From Candidatus Limicola stercorigallinarum (GTDB lineage: Bacteria; Actinomycetota; Coriobacteriia; Coriobacteriales; Coriobacteriaceae), in NCBI GenBank assembly GCA_018711625.1, contig DVID01000049.1:1-43294 (forward strand): a DNA stretch of 43,294 nucleotides. Direction: 5' to 3'. Below the pieces are notes generated by a model. That model worked only from the letters and a program-made list of their open reading frames with translations. It was not told the DNA's origin and made no database searches. The translations under genes and the position numbers were made by a program. Numbering within the stretch: the first letter of the stretch is position 1; every line of letters starts with the position of its first letter. Below, piece after piece: positions 9,766 to 39,506 of the stretch.

Positions 9766-9818
9766 GAAAACAGCAGGGAGGGTGCAGCACTTGGTTTGTT
9801 CCCCCTGCTGTTTTCTTT
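9766..9818. terminator. Bidirectional terminator-like hairpin
   Basis: A 13-bp perfect stem (9766-9778 with 9803-9815) has AAAA on the left and TTTTC followed by TTT on the right, so it can end transcripts from either side. On the minus strand it follows the repeated tRNA-Gln tail. Confidence 0.6.
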
Positions 9819-10001
9819 GGCTGGAGCAGAGGGATTCCGTGTGCGGCTCGCCGCCCGCACCCGCTACGGGGCCTACGGCCCCTTGCGGCCCATGCTGGCA
9901 AAGGCGTTCCACGCTTTGCGCACCATGGGGCCTTTTCGGGTTCGAATCCCGGAGCGGGGCCCAAATATGCCCGGGCAACGAGCCCGGGCATCAACAATTA
10001 A
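9818..10001 (-). repeat. tRNA-Gln trailer element with inverted T-arm and repeated tRNA tail
   Basis: Read on the minus strand after tRNA-Gln: a terminator hairpin; an inverted copy of the tRNA's T-arm (plus strand GGGTTCGAATCCC, 9938-9950, matching tRNA positions 10015-10027); a variable hairpin (about 9898-9925); a GGGGCC/GGCCCC hairpin (9868-9882); then a second copy of the tRNA 3' end. That copy (9818-9837) matches 19 of 20 bases of 10002-10021, a period of 184 nt. The same order of parts follows both tRNA-Leu genes in the window. No protein is encoded. Confidence 0.75.
9968..9990 (-). terminator. Terminator-like hairpin after tRNA-Gln
   Basis: TGCCCGGGC (9968-9976) pairs perfectly with GCCCGGGCA (9982-9990) around a 5-nt loop. 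On the minus strand it begins 11 nt after the CCA of tRNA-Gln and is followed by TATTTGG, a weak T tract. Confidence 0.5.
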
Positions 10002-10075
10002 TGGCTGGGGCAGAGGGATTCGAACCCCCGTAACCGGCACCAAAAACCGGGGTCCTGCCGCTGGACGATGCCCCA
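10002..10075 (-). tRNA. tRNA-Gln (anticodon TTG)
   Basis: The minus strand reads a full cloverleaf: acceptor TGGGGCA pairing with TGCCCCA, discriminator G and an encoded CCA (10002-10004). The anticodon loop is TTTTGGT with anticodon TTG. The T-arm is GGGGG, TTCGAAT, CCCTC. A TACACT box lies upstream on the minus strand. It is followed by a terminator hairpin and the trailer repeat described separately. Confidence 0.95.
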
Positions 10076-10123
10076 TTATCACATCGTTGCCGCATTACCG
10101 CGGCACGACAGCTCAAAGTGTAC

Positions 10124-11272: not shown

Positions 11273-11346
11273 TGGGGTACCGCCCAGCGGCGGGACTCCG
11301 GTTTTTGGTGCCGGTGATAGGGGTTCGAATCCCTTTGTTCCAGTCA
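11273..11346 (+). tRNA. tRNA-Gln-like second copy (anticodon TTG), possibly degenerate
   Basis: 74 bases on the plus strand fold like the tRNA-Gln at 10002-10075. The acceptor TGGGGTA pairs with TGTTCCA using two G-T pairs and one T-G pair. The anticodon stem and loop are the same, with anticodon TTG. The T-arm AGGGG, TTCGAAT, CCCTT is intact. The 3' end reads TCA instead of CCA, and I see no clear promoter or terminator. It could need CCA repair, or be a decaying copy. It also lacks the trailer element found after the other tRNAs. Confidence 0.65.
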
Positions 11347-11383
11347 ATGGAAAGAGCGGCTCGGATACGCAATGCGATTTGGT

Positions 11384-11538
11384 CAACCAAAAACTATTCG
11401 ATTTGTTGCAGTTTGAGGCTGACCTTCAAAATACACGGCCAAAGCCTGACGCTGTGACCTGCGCTTATGTTCCACGCGAAGACCGGTCTACTCGGAGGGT
11501 GCACTTTAATCTGCAACTAATCGAAAAGTTTTTGGTTG
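11384..11538. repeat. Long-hairpin element, copy 1
   Basis: A 28-base left arm (11384-11411, starting CAACCAAAAACTATTCG) is the inverted complement of the right arm (11511-11538) at 26 of 28 positions, leaving a 99-nt centre. The centre aligns with that of the element at 37385-37527 (shared GACC..CAAAATAC, ACCTG.G.TT.TGTT and GACC.G.CTACT..GAGGGT-like blocks), while the arms of the two have unrelated sequence. Inside, ACCTTC can pair with GAGGGT. It lies 37 bp after the tRNA-Gln-like gene and encodes no protein. Confidence 0.75.
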
Positions 11539-19241: not shown

Positions 19242-19258
19242 ATGAAGAAGCCTCCGTT

Positions 19259-19400
19259 TCTTCCATCCGGACTGTACCGTCGGCCCCGGACTCTCACCGG
19301 GTCAGCCGCTTACGCGGGTCGCGGGCTTCTGATGCCGCTGCGCCTCAGCGCGCCTGCGCACATCAGTTACCGCCGGTAGGGAATTGCACCCAACCCTGAA
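19259..19400 (-). ncRNA. FMN riboswitch (RFN element)
   Basis: The minus strand contains the conserved RFN blocks in order: AGGGTTGGGTGCAATTCCC, ACCGGCGGTAACTG, AGCCCGCGA, GTGAGAGTCCGG, CCGACGGTACAGTCCGGATG and GGAAGA. A variable GC-rich hairpin sits between the first pair, as in the family. It ends about 20 nt before the ribU start, overlapping the ribosome-site region, so control may act on translation initiation. It should repress the uptake operon when FMN is plentiful. Confidence 0.97.
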
Positions 19401-19449
19401 ACTATGTTTAGTAACTATACTCCTTTTGTAGCGTGACGTGCGCGGATGT

Positions 19450-37384: not shown

Positions 37385-37527
37385 AAATGGATGCGGTTTT
37401 CCGACGTTTAGCGATGGACCTCAAAATACCTGTCTATCCGGCACGGCTTCTACCTGGGGTTCTGTTGCCGACATAGGACCAGCTACTTGAGGGGTACGGC
37501 TAAAACGTCGGAAAACCGCATCCATTT
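37385..37527. repeat. Long-hairpin element, copy 3
   Basis: The left arm 37385-37410 (starts AAATGGATGCGGTTTTCCG) is the exact inverted complement of 37501-37527 apart from one bulged base. The 90-nt centre can fold further: CCTCAA with TTGAGG, and CTAT.CGGCA with TGCCG..ATAG. It shares central blocks with copy 1 (CAAAATAC, GACC.GCTACT) and copy 2 (CCTGGGGTT..GTT.CC). It lies 62 bp after ppx and next to the tRNA-Leu(TAA) trailer element. It could also terminate ppx. Confidence 0.8.
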
Positions 37528-37543
37528 TTCTTGAGGCATGCTG

Positions 37544-37668
37544 TTCGCGGCTACTGCGGAGCCTGCGGGGCTTCGGCCCCTCGCGCGCTCTGCGGCGGAC
37601 GCTCGCGCGCCCGCTCCGCTCCGCGCCCTTGCGGGTTCGAGTCTGCGCGCGATGCCCGCACATGAGAA
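37544..37668 (-). repeat. tRNA-Leu(TAA) trailer element with inverted T-arm
   Basis: Downstream of tRNA-Leu on the minus strand, beyond its terminator hairpin, lies a GC-rich module. It holds the inverted T-arm (plus strand GGGTTCGAGTC, 37633-37643, exact to the tRNA at 37712-37722), a hairpin around GCGC/GCGA, and GGGGC-TTCG-GCCCC (37567-37580). It aligns with the module after tRNA-Leu(CAG) over about 100 bases, sharing GGCGCGGAGCGGAGCG. No second copy of the tRNA tail is found; the long-hairpin element occupies the place where it would be expected. Confidence 0.7.
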
Positions 37669-37696: not shown

Positions 37697-37781
37697 TGGT
37701 AGGGGCAGGGGGACTCGAACCCCCAATCCTTGCGGCCGAAGATTTTAAGTCTCCTGCGTATGCCAATTCCGCCACGCCCCC
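37697..37781 (-). tRNA. tRNA-Leu (anticodon TAA)
   Basis: An 85-base class II tRNA on the minus strand with acceptor GGGGGCG/TGCCCCT, discriminator A and encoded CCA (37697-37699). The anticodon stem-loop GGAGACTTAAAATCTTC gives TAA. A variable arm (TCGGCCGCAAGGA region) and T-arm GGGGG, TTCGAGT, CCCCC are present. TAGAAT on the minus strand (37796-37791) is a good -10 a few bases upstream. Confidence 0.96.
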
Positions 37782-39060: not shown

Positions 39061-39094
39061 GAACTGCGCTTTCGGCTTTACGCCGAATAGGCAC

Positions 39095-39181
39095 GCGGGC
39101 GTGGCGGAATTGGCAGACGCGTATGGTTCAGGTCCATATGAGCTCCGGCTCGTGAAGGTTCAAGTCCTTTCGCCCGCACCA
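39095..39181 (+). tRNA. tRNA-Leu (anticodon CAG)
   Basis: An 87-base class II tRNA with acceptor GCGGGCG/CGCCCGC, discriminator A and encoded CCA (39179-39181). The anticodon stem-loop TATGGTTCAGGTCCATA gives CAG. The variable arm is GAGCTCCGGCTC-like and the T-arm holds GGTTCAAGTCC. Its 3' end and terminator are repeated downstream at 39347-39414. Confidence 0.96.
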
Positions 39182-39414
39182 TGATTTGAAGAGGCCCCAG
39201 CGATGGGGCCTTTTTCATGTTCGGGCCCAGCGCACGGACTTGAACCTGAGAAGGCGCGGAGCGGAGCGAACGCGTGAGCGTTCGCCGCGTAGCGCGCAAG
39301 GGGCCGGAGGCCCCGCAGCGTCTGTGTTCGCGCCCGCGGACACACGCAAGTCCTTTCGCCCGCACCATGATTTGAAGAGGCTCCAGCGATGGGGCCTTTT
39401 TCATGTTCGGGCCC
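39161..39414 (+). repeat. tRNA-Leu(CAG) trailer element flanked by a 68-bp direct repeat
   Basis: Bases 39161-39228 (T-loop to just past the terminator) recur at 39347-39414 with one difference in 68, a period of 186 nt. Between them lie an inverted T-arm (GGACTTGAACCT, 39236-39247, exact complement of 39156-39167), a perfect hairpin GCGAACGC-GTGA-GCGTTCGC (39266-39285) and GGGGCC-GGA-GGCCCC (39300-39314). The same module follows the other two tRNAs. No coding capacity is evident; open frames across it are artefacts. Confidence 0.85.
39193..39215 (+). terminator. Terminator of tRNA-Leu(CAG)
   Basis: GGCCCC (39193-39198) with GGGGCC (39205-39210), 6-nt loop, then TTTTT (39211-39215). An identical hairpin, except for one base that makes GGCTCC, recurs at 39379-39401 in the repeated tail. 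Confidence 0.85.
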
Positions 39415-39506
39415 CGTACGCGCAACATGCTCGACCGGAATGTGCCATGTTGGGTATGCTAGGAACAACATGGCTTATGACGGCTTGCGTTGAAAGAAGG
39501 GTCATC

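Follow-up and report, generated by a model that had tools for sequence, protein, structure and literature searches.

Units behind three tRNA genes of the window

ARAGORN identified four tRNAs in the window, which is the whole stretch of 43,294 nucleotides analysed here (Candidatus Limicola stercorigallinarum, contig DVID01000049.1), and three of them carry a gene-less unit of about 185 bp on their 3' side. The order of the unit is the 3' tail of the tRNA (from position 56 or 57 to CCA), a trailer which usually holds an intrinsic terminator, an inverted (antisense) copy of the T-arm, a core of three hairpins (H1 to H3), and a junction to a displaced tail of the tRNA; in some cases the units are arranged in tandem. 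The features of the three units are collected in Table 1.

The original prediction held that every CCA-encoding tRNA is followed by an inverted copy of its own T-arm and then by a GC-rich hairpin region. Both the inverted T-arm, with one mismatch for tRNA-Leu(TAA), and the GC-rich region after it were found at all three tRNAs of the window, whereas "every" does not hold genome-wide: nearly all of the about 45 tRNAs of the 1.96 Mb genome encode CCA, and modules were found behind only eight of them, the three in the window (Leu-TAA, Leu-CAG and Gln-TTG) and those behind Ala-TGC, Thr-TGT (truncated), Val-TAC, Gly-CCC and Glu-TTC. The tRNA genes without modules thus count against the word and not against the phenomenon. 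The hairpin described as a constant GGGGCC hairpin proved to be constant only in its shape; its sequence is not.

A direct copy of the tRNA tail, missed at first, closes the module (39347-39414 and 9818-9838). In a repeat search of the window, the two direct repeats of the tRNA-Leu(CAG) unit, 39161-39228 and 39347-39414, were 99% identical with a spacing of 186, and the tRNA-Gln tail at 10002-10021 recurred at 9818-9837 with a spacing of 184. Junction analysis of the Leu-TAA module found no distal tail copy.

Table 1. Features of the tRNA-linked units in the window
Feature	Position	Strand	Basis
tRNA-Gln(TTG), tail and terminator supplied by the unit	10002..10075	-	ARAGORN; comparison with empty congeners
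Gln unit, unit-borne terminator hairpin (GATGCCCGGGC...GCCCGGGCAT), missing in two empty congeners	9964..9993	-	Sequence, congener comparison
Gln unit, antisense own T-arm	9939..9949	-	Inverted T-arm search
Gln unit, core H1-H3	9839..9938	-	Fold, covariance-model rescoring
Gln unit, displaced original tRNA-Gln tail (GGAATCCCTCTGCTCCAGCCA), spacing 184	9818..9838	-	Repeat search, junction analysis
Ancestral tRNA-Gln terminator (AAGAAAACAGCAGGG...), 3' of the displaced tail	9766..9817	-	Match to empty loci L319, L320
tRNA-Leu(TAA)	37697..37781	-	ARAGORN
Leu-TAA unit, antisense own T-arm AGACTCGAACC, one mismatch	37634..37644	-	Inverted T-arm search
Leu-TAA module, covariance-model match; distal tail copy lost	37561..37650	-	Covariance model R1
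tRNA-Leu(CAG), unit host	39095..39181	+	ARAGORN, Rfam
tRNA-Leu(CAG), T-arm GGTTCAAGTCC	39157-39167	+	ARAGORN, Rfam
Leu-CAG unit, direct repeat copy 1: tRNA tail from C56 to CCA, terminator, element start (TTCGGGCCC)	39161..39228	+	Repeat search
Terminator hairpin with T-run, between tRNA-Leu(CAG) and module	39192..39214	+	Sequence
Leu-CAG unit, antisense (inverted) own T-arm GGACTTGAACC	39236..39246	+	Inverted-repeat pair
Leu-CAG unit, hairpin H1, GNRA tetraloop	39253..39297	+	Fold, covariation
Leu-CAG unit, hairpin H2 GGGGCC-GGA-GGCCCC, C-GNA-G triloop	39300..39314	+	Fold, covariation
Leu-CAG unit, hairpin H3, variable, stops at junction	39322..39346	+	Fold, junction analysis
Leu-CAG unit, direct repeat copy 2: tail CAAGTCC...CCA (to 39367), terminator, remnant TTCGGGCCC	39347..39414	+	Repeat search

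Several other elements were observed in the window. A second tRNA-Gln(TTG) at 11273-11343, with a low score of 33.8 bits and no CCA, is inverted and 84% complementary to the functional tRNA-Gln (10002-10078), and is probably a degenerate copy. A palindromic repeat (CCAAAAACTTTTCGATTTGTTGCAGTTTGAGG ... CAACAAATCGAAAAGTTTTTGG) at about 11380-11520, which also lies 3' of Thr-CGT (L003) and of Ala-GGC and Met (L005), seems to represent a MITE-type family of its own. A different palindromic repeat (AAAATGGATGCGGTTTTCCGACGTTTTAG and its inverse) is situated at 37500-37555 near the distal flank of the Leu-TAA unit, and also near that of the Glu-TTC unit (L027). An FMN riboswitch was found on the minus strand at 19251-19407 with 102 bits.

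Distribution, tRNA matching and fold of the units

A covariance model, R1, was built from an alignment of six modules of the genome itself. Judged by the matching named loci, the genome seems to be related to Collinsella and other members of the Coriobacteriaceae. At E<0.01 the model gave seven matches in this genome, every one behind a tRNA, and matches were obtained in 51 of 65 Coriobacteriaceae genomes, representing five of six genera, with 2 to 21 per matching genome. Loci were retrieved for most of the best matches and rescored, which yielded 141 matches; in 115 of them a same-strand tRNA ends 41 to 62 nt upstream (103 nt in one), and the remaining 26 are mostly second copies in tandem arrays, units behind truncated tRNA copies, and contig ends. 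As the 115 loci analysed are those with the best scores, many of them related, the counts given for them are not independent events; their host tRNAs span 22 isoacceptors. At L102, L154, L166 and L182 only the 3' part of a tRNA (anticodon stem to CCA) precedes the unit and no intact tRNA is present; these are truncated tRNA copies with the unit attached. The set of module-bearing tRNAs differs between congeners; no unit is present at the Leu-CAG locus of congener G001, and that of congener G002 holds a divergent one.

The tail copy closes the module in 106 of the 115 loci and starts exactly inside the T-loop, the first tRNA position shared by the copies being 56 in 64 loci, 57 in 21, 59 in 19 and 55 in 2. 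The spacing of the unit was 175 to 203 bp in all of these loci except one (243 bp). The trailer 3' of CCA is repeated in 77 of the 106, clearly different in 18 and intermediate in 11. The displaced tails are mostly perfect copies, and for this reason they may be functional rather than relics. Since 27 of the 115 spacers between tRNA and module have no TTTT run, the module is probably transcribed at those loci.

The claim that the inverted copy follows the sequence of its own tRNA was borne out across the family. The exact inverted 7-nt T-loop of the local tRNA is present in 107 of the 115 loci, in comparison to a mean of 22.6 and a maximum of 36 when modules were shuffled among loci (2000 shuffles). 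The matches are spread over the T-loop sequences, with 9 of 9 for TTCAAGT, 19 of 20 for TTCGAAC, 36 of 39 for TTCGAAT, 4 of 4 for TTCGACC, 18 of 21 for TTCGAGT, 3 of 4 for TTCGATC and 18 of 18 for TTCGATT. Among isoacceptors with several T-loop variants (Ala-TGC, Glu-TTC and Lys-CTT), 20 of 22 match, in comparison to 9.1 after shuffling. In Coriobacteriia and in other phyla alike the match reaches beyond the loop: in the 5' direction as far as position 51, which lies outside the tail copy, and in the 3' direction as far as 63-65/66. Cores found behind different tRNAs of the same genome can be up to 96% identical, and their antisense T-arms nevertheless vary with the tRNA, so the antisense segment follows the local tRNA and not the core. 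In G143, G148 and G216, as well as at L238 (4312) and L218, the antisense segment takes in nearly the whole tRNA tail including CCA (13-20 nt), so that it and the tail copy close the unit in a very long stem.

That the arrangement is unlikely to be chance also holds at the level of the genome. The pattern GGTTCRANYCC has 57 sites in the whole genome, nearly all of them in tRNA T-arms or modules with about seven loci elsewhere, and its reversed control pattern has four; these counts and the shuffles rule out chance inverted T-loops.

The core is conserved as a fold. Among 95 distinct sequences, 18 of 28 pairs change on both sides, and 229 double-change cells were counted in comparison to 68.8 after shuffling, in an alignment that had been fitted to the structure. 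The sense strand is stabler than the antisense strand in 101 of 102 and in 55 of 60 cores, G.U pairs outnumber A.C pairs by 291 to 21, and GNA triloops are frequent in the hairpins. Taken together, the strand-specific stability, the G.U excess and the covariation indicate that selection acts on the folded sense strand, either as RNA or as single-stranded DNA; the same strand-specific energy and strong excess of G.U over A.C disfavour selection on a double-stranded cruciform. The fold on this strand and the tracking of the T-arm at positions 51 and 63-65/66 are what an RNA co-directional with the tRNA would require, and the pairing of a read-through transcript with the T-arm, proposed in the original prediction, may occur.

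Gain at an empty tRNA gene and possible explanations

The tRNA-Gln locus is empty in both congeners (L319 and L320), in which a terminator containing AAACAGCAGG stands directly behind CCA. In the window, the tRNA-Gln is followed by another terminator, the antisense T-arm and the core, and the displaced tail is found 184 bp away with AAGAAAACAGCAGGG behind it. Because the congeners are empty and the ancestral terminator lies behind the displaced tail, the unit at tRNA-Gln is a gain: it inserted exactly in the T-loop and carried in a tail and a terminator of its own. A plain target-site duplication is contradicted at this locus by the different trailers.

On this basis we lean towards regarding the unit as a non-autonomous, gene-less T-loop insertion cassette of about 165-205 bp, with a folded core and mobilised in trans. 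In such a cassette the folded sense strand, as RNA or single-stranded DNA, would hold the antisense T-arm across the junction, where it would act as a splint or guide, GAACC pairing with GGTTC of the tRNA and GGANTY with RANTCC of the tail, and this alignment would serve a site-specific strand exchange between C56 and R57 by an enzyme supplied in trans. The cassette would then restore the tRNA by supplying the tail and terminator itself, in the manner of tRNA-targeting genomic islands. Several points weigh against the cassette: the tail shared at the distal junction usually begins only at 56 or 57 and does not include the whole T-loop, unlike an ordinary integrase overlap, the repetition of the trailer in 77 of the 106 loci is explicable by plain tandem duplication, the mostly perfect displaced tails may be functional, and no recombinase is tied to the units. 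The genome has four tyrosine recombinases, all on contigs other than that of the window, and from their sequences they look like two XerC/D-like proteins, a third Xer-like protein (G000:C19:9324-9809, L327; ORF of 451 aa) and one phage-type integrase; none of the four was tied to the units. A guide of the group I intron kind was rejected from the sequence, as the junction lacks a U.G pair and the guide comes after the tail. We think it rather unlikely that the antisense T-arm is, beyond this, a programmable guide that base-pairs with the T-arm of the tRNA gene and directs exact insertion at C56/R57, by a change of which the cassette would be retargeted to another isoacceptor, and that the units make up a cross-phylum class of mobile cassettes.

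The units could instead be a tRNA-linked family of structured small RNAs, like rtT of E. coli, kept for a function and moved only incidentally, with the antisense T-arm pairing with read-through pre-tRNA or with the distal tail and the direct repeats arising from unequal crossing-over and gene conversion. The covarying, sense-strand-specific fold would suit such a family, as would the mostly intact displaced tails, the 27 loci at which the module is probably transcribed, and the annotation of rtT as a processed sRNA. It leaves unexplained the gain at an empty tRNA-Gln together with a foreign trailer, the differing sets of tRNAs in congeners, and the near-identical cores behind different tRNAs, and we consider it a possible explanation, if not a likely one.

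Islands that target tRNA genes are mapped by the regenerated tRNA and the displaced fragment (PMC4383910). The regenerated tRNA and displaced tail, the hallmark of such islands, together with the junction within the T-loop, would be expected if the units were collapsed attachment sites (attL/attR with the interior lost) of phages or islands of this type. The fixed length and the conserved three-hairpin cores, seen across 22 isoacceptors and several phyla, and the tandem arrays would not be expected from random deletions, and this origin seems improbable.

An origin similar to that of a retroelement, in which the module RNA would be reverse-transcribed from a nick in the T-loop and the tail and trailer would be a long target-site duplication, could account for the constant 3' junction at R57 with a variable distal end and for an RNA fold on the sense strand. 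The two tails that flank the tRNA-Gln unit are followed by different trailers, so the tail copy is not a target-site duplication, and there is no linked reverse transcriptase; this origin, too, seems improbable.

Finally, the units are almost certainly not the worn 3' half of a convergent tRNA gene, which the original prediction had offered as one reading: antisense segments can run through the acceptor strand (L238, L218 and some genomes of the same order), but the opposite strand of the aligned modules has neither a 5' half nor an anticodon arm, the segment tracks the neighbouring tRNA in 107 of the 115 loci, ARAGORN found no opposite-strand tRNA at the modules, near-identical cores stand behind different tRNAs within a genome, the unit is bounded by direct tail copies, and opposite-strand tRNAs make up only 3 of the about 84 matches listed in the GTDB scan described below.

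Relation to E. coli tyrT, other phyla and known systems

The plan of the units is also that of the tyrT region of E. coli. In E. coli O157:H7 this region has 178-bp units, the tail copy begins in the T-loop, and the T-arm has an 86% complementary counterpart in a segment of 22 nt, with mismatches at the junction. An empty spacer between the two tRNA-Tyr genes measures 33 nt, and a filled one is about 176 nt longer. In strain SK1144 it is empty between the two tRNA-Tyr genes and the TCTCAAGCATTACC flank lies directly behind the tail, and in filled tyrT the same flank lies behind the second tail. Most of the filled region is present in 4679 of 5375 genomes with a match, and the empty allele could be either ancestral or a deletion.

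The units here thus resemble tyrT/rtT (RF00391) in their tandem arrangement behind a tRNA, a tail copy from the T-loop, an antisense segment to the own T-arm, natural empty alleles, and hairpins with GCA triloops; the repeat plan itself, in which a tandem unit of about 180 bp carries copies of the 3' tail of the tRNA, is found at 106 of the 115 loci and at 178 bp in E. coli. They differ in that the core is unrelated, many isoacceptors are involved per genome and the T-loop match is mostly perfect. R1 gave no match to the rtT core, RF00391 gave none in the window at the gathering score or in 39080-39420 at E up to 5, and no known Rfam family covers the units in the loci tested. Weak matches of sX4 (RF02223, a Xanthomonas sRNA), below the gathering score, were seen over Spirochaete tRNA-Ser and the start of its unit (L199 6869-7033 and 6038-6173; L250 5359-5487), and sX4 may need re-examination.

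About 85,000 GTDB species genomes were scanned for a T-arm, an antisense T-arm and a tail at the unit spacing. The scan gave at least 119 stretches, and 80 parsed loci yielded about 84 matches. Apart from the three with opposite-strand tRNAs, most of the matches listed have perfect or near-perfect 20-nt tail copies, and the taxa among them include Coriobacteriia, Clostridia, Spirochaetes, Saccharibacteria and other candidate-phyla bacteria, an acidobacterium, and Ancrocorticia. Between phyla the cores differ wholly; what they share is the plan, in which antisense T-arm and tail close off about three hairpins. Since R1 recognises no homologue of the Coriobacteriaceae core in other phyla, the wider class is one of architecture only, which need not reflect a common origin. 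A degenerate class-wide scan (99/246) also catches tandem and convergent tRNAs, so its figure is not a prevalence.

Each element of the plan has a known counterpart in rtT repeats, tRNA islands or cassettes. As in tRNA-integrating genomic islands, a regenerated tRNA and a displaced 3' fragment are found at tRNA-Gln; unlike these islands, the units are about 185 bp long and have tandem arrays and an antisense T-arm, with no genes and no tyrosine integrase. Integron cassettes are small and tandem, code for little or nothing and have a folded recombination site, and by analogy the units may be likened to them as small tandem cassettes with a folded site. In contrast to attC, the junction core GTTCRAN does not fit GTTRRRY and the units are anchored in tRNA genes; no integron integrase was recognised from the sequences of the four tyrosine recombinases. 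Like REP/BIME and MITE-type repeats, the units are short, GC-rich, palindromic and non-coding, and unlike them they occur only behind tRNAs in their own genome and have tRNA-specific ends. A literature search covering open-licence papers found no description of the cross-phylum class, or of the combination, its breadth and the tuned antisense T-arm, which is weak evidence of novelty.

The units join the long-known tyrT repeat of E. coli to a plan that is found in several phyla, often in many copies per genome. They raise the testable questions of how a cassette of about 185 bp without any gene can enter tRNA genes precisely and harmlessly, and why its antisense T-arm stays matched to each tRNA. 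Should the antisense segment act as a guide, the units would represent a small insertion system directed by base pairing.
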